Shown here piece after piece: positions 44,941-62,992 of a DNA stretch of 64,000 bases. A program made the position numbers and the translations under genes. The stretch covers positions 1,240,001 through 1,304,000 of the forward strand of contig NZ_CP127251.1 of NCBI RefSeq assembly GCF_030285925.1. The letters run 5' to 3'. The notes beneath the pieces were generated by a model. It was given only the letters and a program-made list of their open reading frames with translations. It had not been told where the DNA came from and did not search any database. The stretch is from Devosia sp. YIM 151766. GTDB taxonomy: Bacteria; Pseudomonadota; Alphaproteobacteria; Rhizobiales; Devosiaceae. Numbering within the stretch: position 1 is the stretch's first letter; every line of letters starts with the position of its first letter.

Positions 44941-46035
44941 CTATTTTGCCAGTTTTTTGAAGACTCGAACGCTAGTCTTGCGCATTTCGGCGCCCCGGCT
45001 GTAGCGTCTCCCCATCCCCTCCGACATATCGCCCAGCATGTCAGCCACCTCGCGGTCGGAGAATCCCGATTCGCGCAGCTCGCTGCCGAACGTGACGCGC
45101 AGTCCGTGCAAGGTTAGGTCGGCACTGTCGGGAAGCGCATCCTTGAATTCTTCCGATAGCTTCATTTGCTGCCACACCTGGCGCATGGCATTTTCCGAAG
45201 GATACGCCTTCCCGAGGCTGTTCCGGCAGATGGGCGCATTCGTTGCCGGCTGCACCGTGCCGTCGCCCACCTTCATTGCGTCGAGCAGGCTCCGCAGTGC
45301 CGCCGGCACCCCGATGGTAATCTGTCCCACCTTCTTGCCGTTTTTCTTCGGGATAAAGGCCAGCACCTTCCCCATGTCGGGGTCTGTGCGGTAATTCTCC
45401 CAGGTCAGTGCCGCAATGTCCTGCCCCCGCAAACCGCAATGTTTGGCTATGGCTAGAACCGGCCGTAGATGGGTAGGGGCGAGGCTGTAGGCGGTTTGGT
45501 ACTCTTTCTCGGACCAGCGGCGGTTGGCATCGTCACTGGCCTTGTAGAGCCTCCTGACGCCCTTTGCGGGATTAGACTTCATCAGTCCCGCCTCCATGGC
45601 ATCGCGGAAAACGTTGGACATGACCGCAATCACAAAATCGGAGAACTTCTCGCCCTTCTCCGCGGCGGCGATGTCCCGCATCTCCACGACATCGGCTGTC
45701 TCGATCATCTCAACGCTATAGTCGGCGCAGCGGTCGAGGAAGAGCAGCACCTTGGCATAATCGTCGCGGGTACGCTCAGCTAGCGACAGGAATCCCTTGC
45801 TGGTGCGATAGCGCTCGGCCAAAGCTCCGAAGGTGCCGGCAGCATATTGGCGCTGGCGCTTCCGTTCCGCCGTGGAATAGGCATGGAGGAAATCCGCGCC
45901 CTCCATGAGGCGGTCAAGCTCTGCTCGCGTTCCAGATGCGGATAGGAGCAGCTTGCCGGTCGCGCGCAGCGACACATACCACTTCCCCGTCTTGTTCCGG
46001 CGGATATTAAGCCCTCTGAGCTTCACGCGAGGCAC
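44941..46035 (-). CDS. int: Tyrosine recombinase/integrase
   Basis: The 364-residue integrase has an N-terminal arm-binding domain, a SAM-like core-binding domain (about 68-165) and a catalytic domain with R in GLRGQDIAAL, HxxR in HGLRVTF, and the nucleophile Tyr in GRRYSRG. The fifth residue, usually His or Trp in LGH, is Asp here (MLGDMSEG). It lies beside the broken tRNA-Cys, pointing at the junction, as expected for an attL-proximal int. Confidence 0.94.
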   Translation of the reverse strand: MPRVKLRGLNIRRNKTGKWYVSLRATGKLLLSASGTRAELDRLMEGADFLHAYSTAERKRQRQYAAGTFGALAERYRTSKGFLSLAERTRDDYAKVLLFLDRCADYSVEMIETADVVEMRDIAAAEKGEKFSDFVIAVMSNVFRDAMEAGLMKSNPAKGVRRLYKASDDANRRWSEKEYQTAYSLAPTHLRPVLAIAKHCGLRGQDIAALTWENYRTDPDMGKVLAFIPKKNGKKVGQITIGVPAALRSLLDAMKVGDGTVQPATNAPICRNSLGKAYPSENAMRQVWQQMKLSEEFKDALPDSADLTLHGLRVTFGSELRESGFSDREVADMLGDMSEGMGRRYSRGAEMRKTSVRVFKKLAK

Positions 46036-50442: not shown

Positions 50443-51453
50443 TTACGGGCGGTCGCCGGGGAACATGTCGTCCTGCGGCGGCGAGGGCGGCTGCGGCGTC
50501 GAAACACGCTTCATCGCCCGCGCTTTGATCTTGTTGGCGATTTCGAGATTGGTTTCGTCGCTGGTCAGCGTGGCTTCCACGTCGAGTTCGGACCATGCGG
50601 CCTCGATGCCATCGGCGTCCTTGGCGGCGGCCATGGCGATTTCCAAATCCTCGAAGAATGCGGCGGCGTCGAAATCCTGCTCTCCGGTCACGGCTTCGGG
50701 CTGCTCGTCAATGATTGGCTCGTCGGGCTCGGCCGCCGGCGCTACGGGGGGGCTGGGCGGAGAAGGAGGCGACGGCGGCGTGAGGGCGGCCGGCGTCACG
50801 TCGCGCATGTCCTCGACTTCTGCGATTTCACGGGCCTCGAACTCGTCACGGATGCCGCCAAGTACGTCACCGAACAATTCGCGGAGGCAGTAACCAGCAG
50901 CGCGCCATGCCAGCATCCGCTTGGGGAAGCGGAACCACGGGCTATCGTTAGGCTTCTGCTCGTTCTTCTTGTCCCACTTGTTCCACTTGGTGACGATGGC
51001 TTCGGTCTGCCAAAGGCCGGCGCGAACGGCGTCTTCCTGGCTGAACTCGACGCGCTTATCCTCGCCGGTGTCATTGCGCTTGGCTTCGCACCAGCCGATC
51101 ATCTGCCCGTCGCGCTCGTCGCAGCCGGTGCGCAGATACGCAACGCGTCCGGACATGCGCACGACATTTATAAGGCCATCGCCATAAAGCGCGGGCTTGC
51201 CGTTGATGACGGTGAAGCTGCGGAGGGCGACCATGGGCTGTAAGCCAAGCTCGGCGCCGGACATGATGGCAACAGTCACGGCGCTGATTGCCGCGTCACC
51301 TTCGAGCTTGCCGATCAGCGCCGCCGGCGCGAGCCCGCCCATATAGACCGCCTTGGCGACCCGGTATGTTTCCTCGAAGGTCTGCGGCACGATGGCCATG
51401 ACATGTCCGCCACCGGTGAGCGGGCGGGGAAGTGTTGTGACATTCGACATCAT
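50443..51453 (-). CDS. recT: RecT-family single-strand annealing recombinase
   Basis: The 336-residue protein shows the RecT pattern FEETYRVAKAVYMGGLAP, AISAVTVAIMSGAELGLQPMVALRSFTVINGKPALYGDGLINVVR and RFPKRMLAWRAAGYCLRELFGDVLGG. The C-terminal third is Pro- and acid-rich linker plus a short helical tail. It anneals complementary strands during phage recombination. A RecE-type exonuclease is not evident next to it, so the partner may be the following gene product or a host nuclease. Confidence 0.9.
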   Translation of the reverse strand: MMSNVTTLPRPLTGGGHVMAIVPQTFEETYRVAKAVYMGGLAPAALIGKLEGDAAISAVTVAIMSGAELGLQPMVALRSFTVINGKPALYGDGLINVVRMSGRVAYLRTGCDERDGQMIGWCEAKRNDTGEDKRVEFSQEDAVRAGLWQTEAIVTKWNKWDKKNEQKPNDSPWFRFPKRMLAWRAAGYCLRELFGDVLGGIRDEFEAREIAEVEDMRDVTPAALTPPSPPSPPSPPVAPAAEPDEPIIDEQPEAVTGEQDFDAAAFFEDLEIAMAAAKDADGIEAAWSELDVEATLTSDETNLEIANKIKARAMKRVSTPQPPSPPQDDMFPGDRP

Positions 51454-52433
51454 GCGGCCCTCTGCTCGGTGGAAATGGCCATGCCCGGAAGCTCGACGCC
51501 GGATTTCGCAGCGCGGTTAGCCAGCGTCTGGACCAGTTCCTGAATTTCGGGGCGGTCCTTGAGCGCCATCAGCAGCGTGTCGAAATCGGTGATCTGGCCG
51601 TAGACGAACGTGCGCAGCGAAACCTTGGCGCCGGTGCGGCCTGCGCTGGCATTGCGCGCCTCGGCTTCCTTTGCCTTCTCGTCAGCCTCCTGTTGGAGCC
51701 GTTCGGCCTCGGCTGCGGCGGTATCATCATCGGCCTTCGCCGCTTCCGCAGCCTTTGCCTCAGCCTCGCGGCGGATGCGGTCGGCTTCCTCACGCGCGAT
51801 CCGCTGACGCTCTTTTTCCTGTCGGACCAACTCGTTCAGGTAGGCGTCCAGATGGCGCTTGAGCTTCTTGGTGAGAGTGTCCGGCTCGTCCTTGAGGTCA
51901 CGCCACTTGTCGTCCACGACCTTGCACATGTCCCAATGCGGCTGCTTTTCGGTCTTGTGCAGGTTCGTGGCCTTGGACTTGATGCCCGAGAGGCGCTTAG
52001 TCAGCACCGCGATCTGATCGGCGTGGCTCTGCTCCGTGACCGGCTTTGCCAGCAGTTCGGCCGCGACTTCCTGTTCGGCGGCAAACTCGATCTTGAGCGC
52101 TTCGAACGGATCGGTCGGCATATTGCTCGGCACGGTGGCCGTACGCGGCTCGTCGGACCAGCCTTTGCCGGCCATCACCTTGTGATATTCGGCCTCGGTA
52201 ATGGGCTTGTCGCAAACCCAGGTCCAGATACCGGCGGCGTCAGCGGCCTTCCCATCCACCACGGCGATGAATTCGCCCTCCTGCTTCCAAATGGCCACAG
52301 GCACGAAAGGTCCGTCCTTGAACAGCCGGCGGCGATAGAAACCGCACTGCGGATCGCCGTCATGGACCGGGCCAAGTGTGCCGGCCAACGCGTTGATCCA
52401 ATAAACATAGTCGGGATGGACGGCTGCAGACAT
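51450..52433 (-). CDS. Phage protein with long coiled coil, RecT neighbour
   Basis: The 327-residue protein has an N-terminal folded part (MSAAVHPDYVYWINALAG...), a long charged helical segment from about 195 to 285 (EKERQRIAREEADRIRREAEAK and similar, Ala/Glu-rich) and a C-terminal ALKDRPEIQELVQTLANRAAKSG. Proteins of this type often precede RecT in phages, but their role is unknown to me. It overlaps the recT start by four bases. Confidence 0.75.
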   Translation of the reverse strand: MSAAVHPDYVYWINALAGTLGPVHDGDPQCGFYRRRLFKDGPFVPVAIWKQEGEFIAVVDGKAADAAGIWTWVCDKPITEAEYHKVMAGKGWSDEPRTATVPSNMPTDPFEALKIEFAAEQEVAAELLAKPVTEQSHADQIAVLTKRLSGIKSKATNLHKTEKQPHWDMCKVVDDKWRDLKDEPDTLTKKLKRHLDAYLNELVRQEKERQRIAREEADRIRREAEAKAAEAAKADDDTAAAEAERLQQEADEKAKEAEARNASAGRTGAKVSLRTFVYGQITDFDTLLMALKDRPEIQELVQTLANRAAKSGVELPGMAISTEQRAA

Positions 52434-53704: not shown

Positions 53705-53875
53705 ATGCCGACCTCGGTTGAGATATTCTATGTCGCGCTGCCGCTGGCGGTGATTATTTTGTGCGTCACGGTCCTGCTAAACGTGCGATCCGGAATGGCG
53801 CTTGAGCGCAGGGTAAGATCAATGGAGATCGAGCTTGCTTCGCTCCGAGGCGGAATGAACAGGTATAAACTCTGA
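53705..53875 (+). CDS. Possible small membrane protein, antisense to the next gene
   Basis: A 56-residue plus-strand frame MPTSVEIFYVALPLAVIILCVTVLLNVRSG... has one transmembrane helix and a GGAGG about 11 bases upstream. It overlaps the 3' end of the minus-strand gene at 53728-54315 by 148 bases, so both are unlikely to be expressed as ordinary genes. I keep it as a low-confidence alternative because its sequence resembles holin- or exclusion-type peptides. Confidence 0.3.
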   Translation: MPTSVEIFYVALPLAVIILCVTVLLNVRSGMALERRVRSMEIELASLRGGMNRYKL

Positions 53876-54315
53876 GAGACCCGGTCATTCTCACCCATTA
53901 TCGCCGTGCCCTTGTGGTGGCCCGCCGGCGCTAAAACGATGCCCAGCTTGCGTGAATTGGTCAGAGTTACTCTTCCAAGCCCAGTCGCGTCGATGTGCTG
54001 CTCATCCCAGTTATTCTCTCTCGGCATTTTTGGCAGGTCGCCATAGATTGCCAGTTTCGTGCCGACCGGCATTGTGACGCGGGCATGGTCTATGTGCCAG
54101 GTGACCGGCTCGACATTTCTGACGATGAATGAGGTTCCATACCAGTTCGCAATCCCGGCCATGGGCGTGATCGGAAAAGTCTCGATGGCAGGATAGGAAG
54201 GTTTCGTCTGGGCAATTGTTGCCCCGCGAGAATAGTAAACGCCTGCCAAGGCGATAAGCACGCTGGCTACCGCAGCAAACGACCCAACAGCAACCCAATC
54301 CATATCCGCCCCCAT
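53728..54315 (-). CDS. Membrane-anchored hypothetical protein (prophage cargo)
   Basis: The 195-residue protein has an N-terminal transmembrane helix (MDWVAVGSFAAVASVLIALAGVYYSRG) and a soluble remainder with FIVRNVEPVTWHIDHARVTMP and SLYLFIPPRSEASSISIDLTLRSS. It looks like a single-span protein with an exposed beta-rich domain. ATG 54303 is the nearest alternative start. It stands alone between strong leftward terminators on both sides, so it has its own promoter; a superinfection-exclusion or cell-surface role is possible but not shown. Confidence 0.72.
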   Translation of the reverse strand: MGADMDWVAVGSFAAVASVLIALAGVYYSRGATIAQTKPSYPAIETFPITPMAGIANWYGTSFIVRNVEPVTWHIDHARVTMPVGTKLAIYGDLPKMPRENNWDEQHIDATGLGRVTLTNSRKLGIVLAPAGHHKGTAIMGENDRVSQSLYLFIPPRSEASSISIDLTLRSSAIPDRTFSRTVTHKIITASGSAT

Positions 54316-54607: not shown

Positions 54608-55045
54608 CTAGGTCAACGATACATCCGCCAATGGCCTGTGCCACGTTGCGCGCTGCTGTAGCGCTCGCTTTTGGCTTTTGGTCTGTACGCCCCAGATTTC
54701 TCCGTGATGTGGCAAGTCTGGGGGCAGCGGATTAAAGCCAACCTTAAAACCAAGCGCTCTGACGTCTCCAGCAGGGAACACTACCGAGCCGATAAAGGGC
54801 GGCTTCGCCACGTATGTTACGGGGTCTTCCCCGTCCTCAAGTAATTGCGTCTCCAAATCAACCGACAGGCCGCCATTTTGCGAGGCGGCTTGAAATGCCA
54901 TGGTCGACAAACGCCTTCCTGAGGCGGTGGAGACCACATGCTGTGGTGAAACGCGTCTGATCAATCGGTCTTGATCAACAATGCCATCGTGGTCGTGTGG
55001 CACCACGTTGCCATTGTCATCAACCGGCGGCGGCGTGAGCGGCAA
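54608..55045 (-). CDS. Cassette protein 3, unrecognised
   Basis: The 145-residue protein MPLTPPPVDDNGNVVPHDHDGIVDQDRLIRRVSPQHVV... is unrecognised. It has an N-terminal His/Asp-rich stretch (HDHDGIVDQD), a hydrophobic core (PPFIGSVVFPAGDVRALGFKVGF) and a basic C-terminus. It overlaps the upstream gene by 26 bases and ends just before a strong terminator, so it is co-translated with the two other cassette genes. I would expect it to act with them. Confidence 0.72.
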   Translation of the reverse strand: MPLTPPPVDDNGNVVPHDHDGIVDQDRLIRRVSPQHVVSTASGRRLSTMAFQAASQNGGLSVDLETQLLEDGEDPVTYVAKPPFIGSVVFPAGDVRALGFKVGFNPLPPDLPHHGEIWGVQTKSQKRALQQRATWHRPLADVSLT

Positions 55046-55502
55046 GCGGCACCTGATGCAACTGAGAAATCCACTCGACCACTTGGGTAAAGTCGTTGGT
55101 CAACGCTAGTTCCTCGCCGTCCGGCCCGGTGCTTGGAGATCTGCGCCAAGCATCAACGCGATTCGGTCCTCGGACGTGCAATTCAATAGAGGTATGCAAA
55201 TAGTGCCATTCTACCTGAAGATCACCAGACGGGCCGGGAACGATCTGAGGGGCGTCCATGTCACCAGGACAAATGGATCTAAGCATGTTGAGGGTAAAAA
55301 AACCCGTTTCAAAGCGAACGGGAGTGCCCTGATAGCCATCCCAACCCTTTGACAGGCGCATCAGCTCATCAATACGATTTGACACGGTCTTGGTCCACGA
55401 GTTGTCGGGGTGTTGGACAATTGTCTTCCCCGAATGCGCGCGAAACCGCACGACATTTGTGTCACCCGACGAAGAGACCACATTCATTGGGTTCGTTGCC
55501 AT
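55020..55502 (-). CDS. Cassette protein 2, unrecognised
   Basis: The 160-residue protein MATNPMNVVSSSGDTNVVRFRAHSGKTIVQ... has a conserved-looking segment NRIDELMRLSKGWDGYQGTPVRFETGFFTLNML and an aromatic-rich half (VEWHYLHTSIELHVRG). The GWDGY motif recurs in small proteins that sit beside TIGR04255 genes in my memory of accessory loci, but I cannot name a function. It overlaps the upstream gene by 19 bases. Confidence 0.72.
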   Translation of the reverse strand: MATNPMNVVSSSGDTNVVRFRAHSGKTIVQHPDNSWTKTVSNRIDELMRLSKGWDGYQGTPVRFETGFFTLNMLRSICPGDMDAPQIVPGPSGDLQVEWHYLHTSIELHVRGPNRVDAWRRSPSTGPDGEELALTNDFTQVVEWISQLHQVPLAAHAAAG

Positions 55503-56287
55503 TTTTTATGAGCTTTTTCTGTCGTTAGGTTGGCAAATGATTCCACTATAACTTGACGTCCCGAAGCGAGAAATTCAAGGGCACCAATAATTCCAGGCTT
55601 GCGTGGGGCCCCACGCACTGTATGCGAGAACACAATAAATGGTTGACCTGTTGTGTCCCAATTTGTCCCAAACTCGACATAAATCCTGGCTACTGGCCCA
55701 TCTTGGTCTGTGAGCACTTTTTGAAAGGCTCCGCCTCCAGCCTCTACCTCGCTAGCGGGCAGCGAGACAAAGTTCAGGTCAGAGAATGGCCAATCACGAT
55801 CGTCGTCGCCCAGATAAAGCCGGTTGATGTAGGTGATCTCGGCTTGAGTGATCAACAGAGGCGATTTGCCAAAATCTAGGGCAAACTGATTGAGCAACGA
55901 AAGCTCGCGATGAAAACGCTCGGCTAGGTACTCATATCGGGGGTAGACCCCTCCTACACCATCCAACTGACGCCAGTTGTGGAACATGCGCGTTGGCTCA
56001 AACTGCAATAATTCATGTTCATCCGACTGTAGAAACCAAAATCTCGGATGCTGTGTTATATCACCAAACTGAACTTGAAAATTTGGCGCCGGCCGTGAGC
56101 CGAACGTTTCAAACTGGGGCGGTGACGGCGGCTGGGTGATGGCCTTGGGGTATTGATCTTTGTATAATTCCCAGACTTCTCCGGCATTGATCAAGCCGTA
56201 ATCCGGAATCTGATCAAACTGGACGCCCAAAACTATCTCGTTCAAAGGGGGCGCTGCAAAATCTGGCAAACTAGCTGGTCGGCTCAC
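55484..56287 (-). CDS. TIGR04255-like family protein, cassette gene 1
   Basis: The 267-residue protein opens with LPDFAAPPLNEIVLGVQFDQIPDYGLINAGEVWELYKDQYP, the characteristic start of TIGR04255 proteins, and continues with DLNFVSLPASEV and FSHTVRGAPRKPG. The family is scattered across bacteria in mobile or accessory settings and has no firm function. GTG start at 56287 with GGAG eight bases upstream. Local G+C is low (21/60 in 55,501-55,560 and 26/60 in 55,981-56,040, against 42/60 in 53,041-53,100). Confidence 0.85.
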   Translation of the reverse strand: MSRPASLPDFAAPPLNEIVLGVQFDQIPDYGLINAGEVWELYKDQYPKAITQPPSPPQFETFGSRPAPNFQVQFGDITQHPRFWFLQSDEHELLQFEPTRMFHNWRQLDGVGGVYPRYEYLAERFHRELSLLNQFALDFGKSPLLITQAEITYINRLYLGDDDRDWPFSDLNFVSLPASEVEAGGGAFQKVLTDQDGPVARIYVEFGTNWDTTGQPFIVFSHTVRGAPRKPGIIGALEFLASGRQVIVESFANLTTEKAHKKWQRTQ

Positions 56288-56431: not shown

Positions 56432-56698
56432 TCAAGCATCCCTGGGCCTCAGATGCTGCTCGATCAGTTCCCGCGCCATGTCCATGACGTGCCCGTATAC
56501 AGGAATCTCGTCTGCGGCCGCTTGTTGCTGCTCGAGGAGGAAGAGGGCGGTCTCGTATATCTCGACGGTTTCCTCCCCGGAAAGGACGCCCTTGTCATGG
56601 AGGGATTGCACCAGGGCGGCCAGAATGGCCGAGCTCGACAGGGTGACAGCGGCCACCATGGGCAGTGGATCGGGCTCGCTGCTGTAATCGTCGCTCAT
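56432..56698 (-). CDS. Small acidic phage protein
   Basis: The 88-residue protein MSDDYSSEPDPLPMVAAVTLSSSAILAALVQSLHDKGVL... is mostly helical, with a C-terminal amphipathic part (HVMDMARELIEQHLRPRDA). It lies 28 bases after the repressor gene in the same direction and may be expressed from the lysogenic promoter. Unrecognised. Confidence 0.68.
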   Translation of the reverse strand: MSDDYSSEPDPLPMVAAVTLSSSAILAALVQSLHDKGVLSGEETVEIYETALFLLEQQQAAADEIPVYGHVMDMARELIEQHLRPRDA

Positions 56699-56726: not shown

Positions 56727-57317
56727 TCATTTGGGCTTTATCCAGTCGATGGGCGCAGCCCACTCCACAACCTGATCCTCCATCAACGGGAAGTACGGGT
56801 TGAGGCTGGCAAGGGACCACAGGTTCGACGTCGATCCTTGTTGGACGATCTTTACGAAAATTCTGCCATCGGCCAGTTGCACAACAGCCCGTTTGTTCAA
56901 CATGTCGCCCGGCGGCATCAGTCGAGAATAGTAGAGCAAGGTGCCCGGTTCGTATGCTGGGAACATAGAGTCCCCCTTGACCCTCACGGCAACGGTATTC
57001 GGCCCAGCGTCTGCCGGAGCCGGCGCAGTGTCGTCACCATCCCCTTCAATTGCCAGAACCTCGGCGCCAGCACCAATATTTCCCTTGAGCGGGACGCGAG
57101 CATCGTCATCGGCGGAAAGCACATAATCCGGATCAATCTCGTCAACGCCCACCTTGAGCGCCCGGGCCAAGGCTGGGAGTTCGGTCGTGCTTTCATTCAC
57201 GCCATTCTCGATCTGCGAGATCAATTGCTGACTCACCCCGGCCGCCTTGGCGAGCGCCGCCTGGGACATCTTCGCCGCCGCCCTTAACCGCTTGAGATTT
57301 ATGCCTATTGAACTCAT
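56727..57317 (-). CDS. CI-like prophage repressor with S24 (LexA-type) domain
   Basis: The 196-residue repressor has an XRE helix-turn-helix (MSQAALAKAAGVSQQLISQIE, about 17-37), a linker with a candidate cleavage site (GNIGAGAEV, 79-87), and the autopeptidase domain with Ser117 (GDSMFPAYEPG) and Lys156 (GRIFVKI). RecA-stimulated self-cleavage would induce the prophage. The ATG sits exactly where the -10 box TAGAAT (57329-57324) predicts the transcript to begin, so the mRNA appears leaderless. Confidence 0.93.
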   Translation of the reverse strand: MSSIGINLKRLRAAAKMSQAALAKAAGVSQQLISQIENGVNESTTELPALARALKVGVDEIDPDYVLSADDDARVPLKGNIGAGAEVLAIEGDGDDTAPAPADAGPNTVAVRVKGDSMFPAYEPGTLLYYSRLMPPGDMLNKRAVVQLADGRIFVKIVQQGSTSNLWSLASLNPYFPLMEDQVVEWAAPIDWIKPK

Positions 57318-57400: not shown

Positions 57401-57646
57401 ATGCCAAAGCTAAGATCACTCATTGAGCGTGCCGTTCGGCACCACGGTTCCCAAGCCAAGCTGGCGGCCAAGATGGGCTGCTCCCAGCAGCAGATCGCGT
57501 ATCTGCTCAAGGCGAGCAACATCACCGCCGAAATGGCCATCGCGGTGGATACGGCGACGGATGGGGCGGTGTCTCGCCATCAGCTTCGGCCCGATATTTT
57601 CCCATCGCCCAGTCCCTCCCCCTCTCCCCAGAGGGCAAGCGCATGA
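57401..57646 (+). CDS. Cro/YdaS-like DNA-binding protein
   Basis: The 81-residue protein MPKLRSLIERAVRHHGSQAKLAAKMGCSQQQIAYLLKASNITAEMAIAVDTATDGAVSRHQLRPDIF matches YdaS-type small XRE regulators that play the Cro role. The start codon immediately follows OR1 and lies about 7 bases after the -10 box, with no Shine-Dalgarno site, so translation is probably leaderless. The C-terminus is a Pro-Ser repeat (SPSPSPSPQ). Its stop overlaps the next start. Confidence 0.88.
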   Translation: MPKLRSLIERAVRHHGSQAKLAAKMGCSQQQIAYLLKASNITAEMAIAVDTATDGAVSRHQLRPDIFPSPSPSPSPQRASA

Positions 57647-57882: not shown

Positions 57883-58218
57883 ATGAGTTCGATGCAGAAC
57901 ATCATCGCGGAAGCGGACCGTGGGCAACTGCTCACCGATGCTGATTACGCCATCGAAGAAATCCTCACTGCTCTTGCTGACGACTACGAGCGATCCGGCG
58001 AAATCACCATCAAGGTCAAGTTCAAGACCAAGAACGGCGCCGTGCAAATCCTGCCCGAGTTGACCCACAAGCTGAGCAAGCCCGAGCGCGTCACCACGCT
58101 GATGTTCCTCACGGACAACGGTGAATTGTCCCGCCGTGATCCGCGTCAGCCCGTCATGCCATCCGTCGCGGACGCGGACGAGTTGAACCGCCGCCGCACC
58201 GAAAAATCCGCAAGCTAA
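57883..58218 (+). CDS. Hypothetical phage protein
   Basis: The 111-residue protein MSSMQNIIAEADRGQLLTDADYAIEEILTALADDYERSGEITIKVKFKTKNG... is acidic, with an alpha/beta composition. AAGGA precedes the ATG. It lies directly before the DUF2303 gene, as often seen in phage early operons. Unrecognised. Confidence 0.72.
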   Translation: MSSMQNIIAEADRGQLLTDADYAIEEILTALADDYERSGEITIKVKFKTKNGAVQILPELTHKLSKPERVTTLMFLTDNGELSRRDPRQPVMPSVADADELNRRRTEKSAS

Positions 58219-58230
58219 GGAAATCCTGAC

Positions 58231-59067
58231 ATGAACGAAACTACGCATGTCCGCGGCGACGTGGAAGTCGCAATCGACGCTCTCGCCGAAGCCCATGTGT
58301 CCGGCGCATTTCCCACACCTAACGGCGGCCAAGTGCTGTTTGTCGGCAAGGGGCTGCGCACCGAAGTGATCCAGCCGCTGAACCCTGTCCTGCCGGCACG
58401 TGTGAGCCAGGCAGAAACCGTGGTCGAGCCCGCGTCTTTCATCGACTACATCATCCAGTTCAAATCCCCGACCGCGATCTGCCGCGCTTCGCTGAGCGGT
58501 AACAACATCACTGCCGTGCTGGACTATCACGGCCGCGCACGTGAATCCGAGGATGGCGCGGTTCCTCAGCCGCTCACCCATACTGTGACGCTGAAATGCC
58601 CGTTCGATCTGGACTACGCCAAATGGCGCTCTGTTTTCGGCAAGGGCCTCAACCAGACCGATTTTGCCGAACTGCTCGAAGATATGGTCCACACCATTTC
58701 CGAGCCCGCCGTTGCCGATCTGATGGAGGCCATCAACGACCTCAAGATTGACCGGGAAGTCCGGTTCAAGTCGGGCCGTAATGACCGCAACGGCACCGTC
58801 CAGATCACCTATGAAGAAATCGACGCCGAAGGCACTTCGACCGGCGGGCGGGTGACGTTGCCGCAGGAAGTGAAAATCGTCCTTTCGGTGTTCCAGGGCG
58901 GTGAACTGGTCGAGTTGATCGCCAAGCTCCGCTACCGGATGGAAAAGGGCGCAGTGGCCTTCATCCTTGTGGTTCCGGGCCTCGACAAGATTGAGCGCGA
59001 CCAGTTTCGCCGCATTGGCGAAAAGGTCCGAGCGGATACCGACACGCCCGTCTTCTACACCGCCTGA
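58231..59067 (+). CDS. DUF2303 family protein
   Basis: The 278-residue protein matches the DUF2303 pattern with FIDYIIQFKSPTAICRASLSGNNITAVLDYHG, HTVTLKCPFDLDYAKWRSVFGKGLNQTDFAELLED and KIVLSVFQGGELVELIAKLRYR. The domain is common in temperate phages and plasmids near replication or recombination genes; its function is unknown. AGGA lies upstream of the ATG. Confidence 0.88.
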   Translation: MNETTHVRGDVEVAIDALAEAHVSGAFPTPNGGQVLFVGKGLRTEVIQPLNPVLPARVSQAETVVEPASFIDYIIQFKSPTAICRASLSGNNITAVLDYHGRARESEDGAVPQPLTHTVTLKCPFDLDYAKWRSVFGKGLNQTDFAELLEDMVHTISEPAVADLMEAINDLKIDREVRFKSGRNDRNGTVQITYEEIDAEGTSTGGRVTLPQEVKIVLSVFQGGELVELIAKLRYRMEKGAVAFILVVPGLDKIERDQFRRIGEKVRADTDTPVFYTA

Positions 59068-61740: not shown

Positions 61741-62108
61741 GCGGGCCTCGCTACAGCACACTTCCTGCAGATTGCCTGAGCGATCCCGTAATGGACGCAT
61801 GGTCAGCGCTTCGGATTAACGTTCGGCGTGATGCGTTGTGGGAATCGCAGGACGGCCGCTGTTGGTACTGCGGACGCAAGGTGGCGCATAGCCGCGAATG
61901 GGTTCCTTCTGGAGAGGTTTTTGTTCTCCCGGACGGCAAATTGACCTGCGCGATAGAACACCAAACGCCCAAGTGCCGAGGCGGCTCTAGTGCCGCTGGA
62001 AACCTGGTCCTATCGTGCACCACCTGCAATTCTCAAAAGGGCCGAAAGACCGTTGCCGAATATCGCGATTGGCTCGGCGCCACTGCGTTTCATGGAGAAT
62101 ATCCATGA
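61722..62108 (+). CDS. HNH endonuclease
   Basis: The 128-residue protein has CWYCGRKV, EHQTPKCRGGSSAAGNLVLSCTTCNSQKGRKT (HNH with paired CxxC) and an N-terminal helical part. GTG 61737 is an alternative start that avoids overlapping the fragment at 61639. It stops within the start of the replication gene (ATGA), so it is well integrated in the operon. Confidence 0.88.
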   Translation: MGGRAVSGPRYSTLPADCLSDPVMDAWSALRINVRRDALWESQDGRCWYCGRKVAHSREWVPSGEVFVLPDGKLTCAIEHQTPKCRGGSSAAGNLVLSCTTCNSQKGRKTVAEYRDWLGATAFHGEYP

Positions 62109-62992
62109 GTCACGACGCAACCAATTGGGCGGTAAAGCAGCGTGGGCTAAGGCCGATTGCGAAGGTGGTCCTCTGGCATCTAGCGGACTGTCACAACCCC
62201 TCCATGGGCTGTTTTCCAACTCAGGAATACCTTGCTGGCGCGGCCGAGGTCAGTCGAGCATCAGTCAATCGCATCCTGGCTGAACTCGAACATGCCGGCA
62301 TTATCCGCCGCGAGCAGCAGATCGACCCTAAGACAAATCGCCAGCTTCCGACGCGCTACCTACTAGCGTTCGAAAACGGGTTTGAGCCACTACATGTAGA
62401 TGTGGGTGTAACTGGATTGGACACGGCTTTTTCGGATGATCCGTGTCTCAAAAATGACGAAAGCCGTGTCTCAAAATCGGCGGTTTCCGTGTCTCAGAGC
62501 TGTGAGACACTAACCAGTAAGGGAACCAGTAATCTAACCGGTAATGCGCTGCGCGCCGAGAGCGAGCGGGTTGATTTTGATTTGGCTTGGAATGCGTTCC
62601 CCCACCGTCCGATGTCGAACCGAACAGCAGCGCAGAAAGCCTGGGCCGCTCTCAGCGATGAGGAAACCATTCGTTGCATGACCGCGATCAAGCGGTTTGC
62701 TCGCTGGCACGTCGAGGACAGCGAGATGCGTGGCGTCGATCCGAAGGCGCAGCTTGAGTTTCGCCCTGGCATGGGCCGGTGGATCGGCTCTGGCGCGTGG
62801 ATTGAAGCGCTGACGGTTCCTCTCAAATCGGATCCGGCGCCGCCACAGACGGATGGCTTGGTGGTGCTGACCCCAGACCATCCGGACTTCATCGCCATTG
62901 AGCGCCTTCGGGGTCGCAAGGTTCCGCTTGGCCAGTCTGGCCGAGCAACGTTCCGTATTGAGGAAATCGAGCAGGCGAGGGCAGCAGCATGA
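62105..62992 (+). CDS. Winged-helix phage replication protein
   Basis: The 295-residue protein begins with a winged helix-turn-helix (TNWAVKQRGLRPIAKVVLWHLADCHNPSMGCFPTQEYLAGAAEVSRASVNRILAELEHAGIIRREQ), as in lambda O-like and DnaD-like initiators. A middle Ser/Thr-rich linker leads to a C-terminal domain (FDLAWNAFPHRPMSNRTAAQKAWAALSDEE...FRPGMGRWIGSGAWIEAL) typical of phage replisome organisers. The region 62,390-62,560 is rich in short direct repeats (CCGTGTCTCA) and may be the origin. Confidence 0.85.
   Translation: MSHDATNWAVKQRGLRPIAKVVLWHLADCHNPSMGCFPTQEYLAGAAEVSRASVNRILAELEHAGIIRREQQIDPKTNRQLPTRYLLAFENGFEPLHVDVGVTGLDTAFSDDPCLKNDESRVSKSAVSVSQSCETLTSKGTSNLTGNALRAESERVDFDLAWNAFPHRPMSNRTAAQKAWAALSDEETIRCMTAIKRFARWHVEDSEMRGVDPKAQLEFRPGMGRWIGSGAWIEALTVPLKSDPAPPQTDGLVVLTPDHPDFIAIERLRGRKVPLGQSGRATFRIEEIEQARAAA
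62400..62545. repeat. Short direct repeats inside the replication gene (possible origin iterons)
   Basis: The sequence CCGTGTCTCA occurs at about 62,441, 62,464 and 62,488, at intervals of roughly 24 bases, and AACCAGTAA occurs twice at 62,512-62,535. Lambda-type origins consist of iterons inside the O gene, and the copies here lie in the linker region. The number of copies is small, so this is tentative. Confidence 0.5.

Follow-up and report, generated by a model that had tools for sequence, protein, structure and literature searches.

Three overlapping genes, here called A, B, and C, were identified in a 64,000-nucleotide stretch of the Devosia sp. YIM 151766 genome (the window; bases 1,240,001–1,304,000 of a 3.29-Mb single-contig genome), and on sequence grounds they form a conserved three-gene system in distantly related bacteria. 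A is a member of NCBI family TIGR04255, B carries a GWDG domain, and C is predicted to adopt an ADP-ribosyltransferase (ART) fold. The trio is best read as an abortive-infection or addiction module composed of an ART-fold effector (C), a partner or antitoxin (B), and an exchangeable regulator (A). We give an even chance to the more specific proposal that this is the prophage copy of a widespread module acting by abortive infection, with A as sensor, B as restraint, and C as ART effector. New in either case is a TIGR04255-headed relative of the PADLOC candidate PDC-M32, with a first mechanistic proposal. The unit comprises the following features (window coordinates):

55484–56287, minus strand: gene A, GTG start, 267 amino acids, TIGR04255 family, proposed sensor or regulatory component
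55020–55502, minus strand: gene B, ATG start, 160 amino acids, GWDG-domain protein, proposed partner or antitoxin of C
54608–55045, minus strand: gene C, TTG start, 145 amino acids, predicted ART-fold effector with conserved R30-S61-H114
54594–54571, minus strand: intrinsic terminator closing the A-B-C unit just past the C stop, with a 9-pair stem (7 G-C pairs) and a T-rich tail

A and B overlap by 19 nt and B and C by 26 nt, in agreement with a first-pass annotation of this DNA that described three overlapping leftward genes as one unit closed by a terminator.

Scanning genome contigs with an alignment of A yielded 16 loci, which by record name fall among alphaproteobacteria, Acidobacteria and Bryobacterales, Planctomycetota, Pyrinomonadaceae, Longimicrobiales, Obscuribacter, Pseudomonadales, Mycobacterium, and others. 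By eye, A, B, and C were present in this order on one strand in all 16 (L045 without the start of A). Fourteen of the 16 are contigs of metagenome-assembled genomes, so the taxon names of single loci may be wrong (L039 and L040 are near-identical and carry different names), and the independent loci number fewer than 16 because L048 matches the trio of an M. paragordonae plasmid (L031) and L036 is the G101 locus. Leave-one-out hidden Markov models (HMMs), each built without the tested locus and its near twin, detected B (E ≤ 1.2e-14) and C (E ≤ 1.5e-6) in 17 of 17 loci (the window, L031, and 15 of the 16 scan loci), with E values of 9.9e-40 and 3.9e-45 for the window's own B and C. A fairer test starts from the NCBI TIGR04255 model, which excludes B and C. 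Among 199 genomes of the order, 13 gave a match to this model (12 above the cut-off), the window being one of the 13, and broad leave-one-out HMMs placed B and C next to A in 12 of the 13 loci; as the sequences of these broad HMMs were chosen by eye from open reading frames (ORFs) at the anticipated position, the figures bear on similarity, not on the choice. The weakest of these was L009 (3e-4 and 1.1e-4), where narrow HMMs found neither B nor C and broad HMMs found both weakly; at L005, which has a TIGR04255 match, the broad leave-one-out HMMs detected neither B nor C.

Intergenic gaps across the trio loci ranged from −71 to +29 nt. Pairwise distances of the three genes are correlated between matrices (r 0.70–0.78, 0/5000 permutations; 15 loci, L031 and L045 omitted), as would follow from joint movement of the trio, a pattern that shared host descent would also give. 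The search for conserved gene order thus returned the opposite of single genes in housekeeping contexts, and the same order in distant bacteria strongly supports the accessory module of three genes that the first-pass annotation proposed. Its description of the cassette as phage-borne stands for the window's prophage and for one IMG/VR contig carrying all three genes beside a phage tail gene (L049). As a general description it is only partly right: tblastn of A, B, and C against 50,697 phage records gave no match at E ≤ 0.01, one trio is on a plasmid, and other relatives lie on genome contigs, few of which were assigned to a replicon.

The AlphaFold2 (AF2) model of C is confident (pLDDT 95.2), and its structural neighbors by VIA-align were of ADP-ribosyltransferase type in 23 of the 24 matches listed, with middling Z and with Tse2 among the rows. 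Across 35 C proteins with a median identity of 18.6%, S61 and H114 were each kept in 35/35 and R30 in 32/35; in the model, R30, S61, and H114 fall in predicted strands 27–32, 60–64, and 114–118, respectively. C is thus predicted to be an ART-fold effector, for which NAD+-dependent catalysis and toxicity are plausible properties. It is improbable that C is instead an ART-like domain without catalytic activity, or an alpha/beta domain of only similar shape, within a trio acting as a scaffold or regulator unrelated to defense, since two invariant polar residues and a near-invariant arginine at such low identity have the look of an active site.

The structural matches also bear on a different enzymatic role. 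Among the VIA-align matches listed for C, the highest-Z rows were Tpt1/KptA, which also occupied the two top Foldseek rows, weakly (E 0.28 and 0.43), and a phage RNA 2'-phosphotransferase came third, again weakly (E 0.85), in a viral structure library. C could accordingly be an enzyme of ART fold that repairs or modifies RNA, as Tpt1/KptA does, in a module that repairs or counters nuclease damage (e.g., to tRNA) and kills no cell; PDC-M32 pairs adjoining type I restriction genes would suit such a role, type I restriction loci being a site for PrrC-type nucleases. We regard this as very unlikely. Most C-to-KptA rows cover the second half of KptA only (about residues 82–180), no sequence similarity between C and KptA was detectable, and the conserved residues of C are R, S, and H, as opposed to the catalytic R-H-R-R of Tpt1.

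B links the trio to PDC-M32. It consists of a variable N-terminal stretch followed by a domain containing W54 (34/35), P85 (34/35), G93 (35/35), and W99 (31/35), and it matches the C-terminal part (last third) of PADLOC PDC-M32A (E 2.9e-8; best profile stretch 256–332 of 375). Profile–profile comparison of B with three PDC-M32A sequences gave 96.9% over 87 columns. Full-length PDC-M32A, with its N-domain and GWDG domain, was not found in the window, where B matches the C-terminal part only. In L016, L023, and L030, the gene following the PDC-M32A-type B is PDC-M32B. The window's C matched no PADLOC model at E ≤ 10, and when relatives of C were compared with PDC-M32B, C of L039 (4e-4) and L034 (0.051) matched and C of L007, L028, and L046 did not; relatives with and without such a match nevertheless align to PDC-M32B-type proteins and show R, S, and H conserved in the alignment. 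The term undescribed, used for the cassette in the first-pass annotation, has to be qualified, since a B-C pair already figures among the PADLOC candidates.

The part preceding B proved variable. Searching 398 genomes of the phylum to which the window belongs (Pseudomonadota) with C turned up 20 loci, spread over 19 genomes. The search is partly circular in that 11 of these loci had contributed sequences to the query alignment and three more were known from searches with A or B. In the six loci found by C alone (L079, L081, L082, L083, L085, and L086), a B-like gene was seen by eye upstream in 6/6, and TIGR04255 matched before B in four, with L086 (28.5 bits) under the cut-off. Over all 20 loci, the part before B was TIGR04255 in eight, the PDC-M32A N-domain fused to B in four (one cut by the contig end), another or a cut N-terminal part in four (one with weak PPR/TPR matches), an AAA_21/AbiEii-like ATPase in one (9.8e-33), an unrecognized 242-amino acid protein without NCBIfam or Pfam match in one (L084), and nothing related by eye in two. 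This tally indicates that B-C is the constant pair and that the upstream part is exchanged. We put at slightly short of even the prospect that the B-C core, a GWDG-domain partner with a new ART-fold effector bearing an R-S-H active site, and its interchangeable triggers (TIGR04255, PDC-M32A N-domain, TPR/PPR-like proteins, and AbiEii-like ATPases) form one large class of immune modules that occurs across several phyla, in prophages, on plasmids, and at restriction loci. In L019 and L029, B was present and the C HMM gave no match. Two individual loci are recorded here in their own right. In L025 (G381:C408), the AAA_21/AbiEii-like ATPase immediately precedes B and C, an arrangement that may be a three-gene variant in its own right. 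On a plasmid of Acetobacter persici (L032, 5992–7297), one protein contains two B-like stretches, and the next gene belongs to the SspB (ClpXP adaptor) family and stands in place of C.

The family label given to A by the first-pass annotation was borne out by an NCBIfam TIGR04255 score of 61.7 bits (curated cut-off 30; residues 10–263 to profile 2–251 of 252). The AF2 model of A is of fair confidence (pLDDT 83.6, pTM 0.83), and structure comparison returned no convincing fold match. Profile–profile comparison with 11 SecB sequences gave 0.1% probability and Pfam SecB did not match at E ≤ 10, a distant structural kinship still being conceivable. A had no PADLOC match and showed no similarity to PDC-M32A by profile comparison (three sequences), and no mention of TIGR04255 was found in the open-access literature searched. 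Position and exchange suggest A as a sensor or regulator and, likewise, B as the partner or antitoxin of C.

Genes adjoining the modules include recognizable defense functions. Among PDC-M32-type pairs, L016 is preceded by N6_Mtase and followed by RhuM, L017 is followed by Methylase_S (Pfam in each case), and L018 and L020 likewise have type I restriction neighbors by eye. Among A-B-C loci, L033 has an MmeI-type enzyme as neighbor, L047 a PLD-SNF2 helicase, and L039 an Abi_C gene directly after C. Classification covered 10 large neighbors from eight loci. Of 134 neighbor ORFs (2 of 136 omitted), up to three members per family match DISARM, BREX, or type IIG models, matches that are partly cross-matches of helicases and methylases. 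Weighing against a defense role are ordinary neighbors at several loci, among them a PolA gene near L042 and an acyl-CoA dehydrogenase also beside L039. The defense role assigned by the first-pass annotation therefore gains indirect support, from restriction-modification, Abi_C, AbiEii-like ATPase, and PLD-helicase neighbors, from the likeness of B to a domain of PDC-M32, and from that of C, via relatives, to the second PDC-M32 protein, and is tempered by these ordinary neighbors. The distribution is sporadic (TIGR04255 in 13/199 genomes of the order, C in 19/398 of the phylum) and, together with mobile or defense neighbors, argues against housekeeping. At L034 (11806–13218, Afipia massiliensis), the trio is followed by a 471-amino acid protein with no Pfam or NCBIfam match at E ≤ 0.01.

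Mobile settings are also compatible with an addiction module. B and C would then be a toxin–antitoxin pair whose toxin has an ART fold, A would act as co-regulator, and the module would persist for prophage or plasmid stability and not for phage sensing. The trio occurs in the window's prophage, beside phage tail genes (L037 and L049), and next to a MobF relaxase gene on the M. paragordonae plasmid (L031), which PLSDB types as non-mobilizable. The genes are small and overlapping, B-C stands alone in 2 of the 20 loci, and the double-B protein followed by the SspB gene on the Acetobacter plasmid would fit B being subject to proteolysis. Type I restriction neighbors and pairing with an AbiEii-like ATPase or Abi_C are, however, more typical of defense, and a third, larger, replaceable gene is unusual for plain addiction, such that we consider pure addiction fairly unlikely.

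Under the preferred abortive-infection reading, C would probably use NAD+ to modify a cell component, or consume NAD+, and thereby stop growth. B, encoded by the overlapping gene just upstream, would restrain C or deliver or present it. A would sense a cue, in the simplest case a product of the infecting phage or the stress that it induces, and release or activate B-C; in other versions of the module, the place of A would be taken by a PDC-M32A N-domain, a TPR/PPR-like protein, or an AbiEii-like ATPase, located before B or fused to it. In the lysogen, A-B-C would be transcribed with cI, and the host, hence the prophage, would be protected from other phages by abortive infection. This constitutes a first functional hypothesis at once for the orphan NCBI family TIGR04255 and for candidate PDC-M32, one modular system being proposed with both as parts of it. 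If true, a widespread immune module based on ART activity, its upstream partners being interchangeable, would join those described, and R30, S61, and H114 would be the residues whose loss should switch the module off, which makes the claim directly testable.

The surroundings of the cassette are the early part of a lambda-like prophage, which also includes a NinB/Orf gene and the following features:

56727–57317, minus strand: cI-like repressor (PHROG phrog_4 transcriptional repressor, 1.5e-26), upstream of A on the same strand
56432–56698, minus strand: 88-amino acid ORF between cI and A, present in the ORF list and absent from the first-pass annotation
57401–57646, plus strand: Cro-like gene
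50443–51453: RecT
51450–52433: exonuclease
44941–46035: integrase
62015–62992: O-like replication gene

The cassette lies downstream of the prophage repressor, with one ORF between. Neither a terminator nor a sigma-70-like promoter was found on the minus strand between cI and A, making transcription from the repressor promoter the simplest guess for A-B-C. G+C content is 50.0% in A, 54.7% in B, and 56.8% in C, and that of the cassette (52.8% versus 61.8% for the window) is the lowest of any stretch of the window; 0.6% of 1680-bp windows are as low (60-bp steps, the cassette's own included). A recount of the reported drop confirmed a minimum of 21 G+C in the poorest 60-mers, a value as low as which occurs in 0.03% of all window 60-mers.

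Several further features were observed nearby. Three terminator-like hairpins stand in series on the minus strand between C and the leftward early genes (54594–54571, 54541–54524, and 54387–54366), exceeding the need of one operon. Another, followed by seven T, lies inside the B coding region on the sense strand (55303–55322) and may be chance or an attenuator. An ORF of ∼190 amino acids between the cassette and the early operon (53728–54303, minus strand) has a hydrophobic stretch near its start and no PHROG match at E ≤ 1e-4, and is a possible second cargo gene. To the right of cro, two genes (57883–59067, plus strand) match PHROGs of unknown function, phrog_204 and phrog_210.

Four described systems invite comparison. 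Tse2 and related NAD-dependent ART toxins are one case, Tse2 being among the structural matches of C; Tse2 acts after secretion and is paired with a single immunity protein (PMC6099711), whereas C is found in three-gene company and no secretion context was seen at the locus. In position, the cassette is reminiscent of RexAB of lambda and of the RexAB-type defense operon of Pseudomonas putida, being downstream of a cI-like repressor and on its strand, with one ORF between here and two genes between in P. putida (PMC12894663). The proteins differ, and nothing here suggests a membrane component (over 19 residues, hydropathy peaks at 0.71 to 1.14 in the three proteins). CmdTAC, an mRNA ADP-ribosyltransferase toxin–antitoxin–chaperone system (PMC11618068), similarly combines an ART effector, a small partner, and an infection sensor in three genes, the sensor being only predicted here. 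CmdC is SecB-like, whereas A is not detectably so, and C has R-S-H in place of the H-Y-[E,D,Q] triad given for CmdT in that paper; because the protein families differ, only the way of working is compared. Within the open-access literature searched, PDC-M32 came up in one paper, in which PADLOC predicted PDC-M32A and B in a Sinorhizobium meliloti prophage, and "PDC" was absent from the main text of the PADLOC web-server paper as far as that text was available. The window trio differs from this pair in having three genes as opposed to two and in having, instead of the ∼250-amino acid PDC-M32A N-domain, a TIGR04255 protein upstream that is not detectably related to it; the two are alike in that B resembles the last third of PDC-M32A and relatives of C resemble PDC-M32B, in the same B-then-C order.
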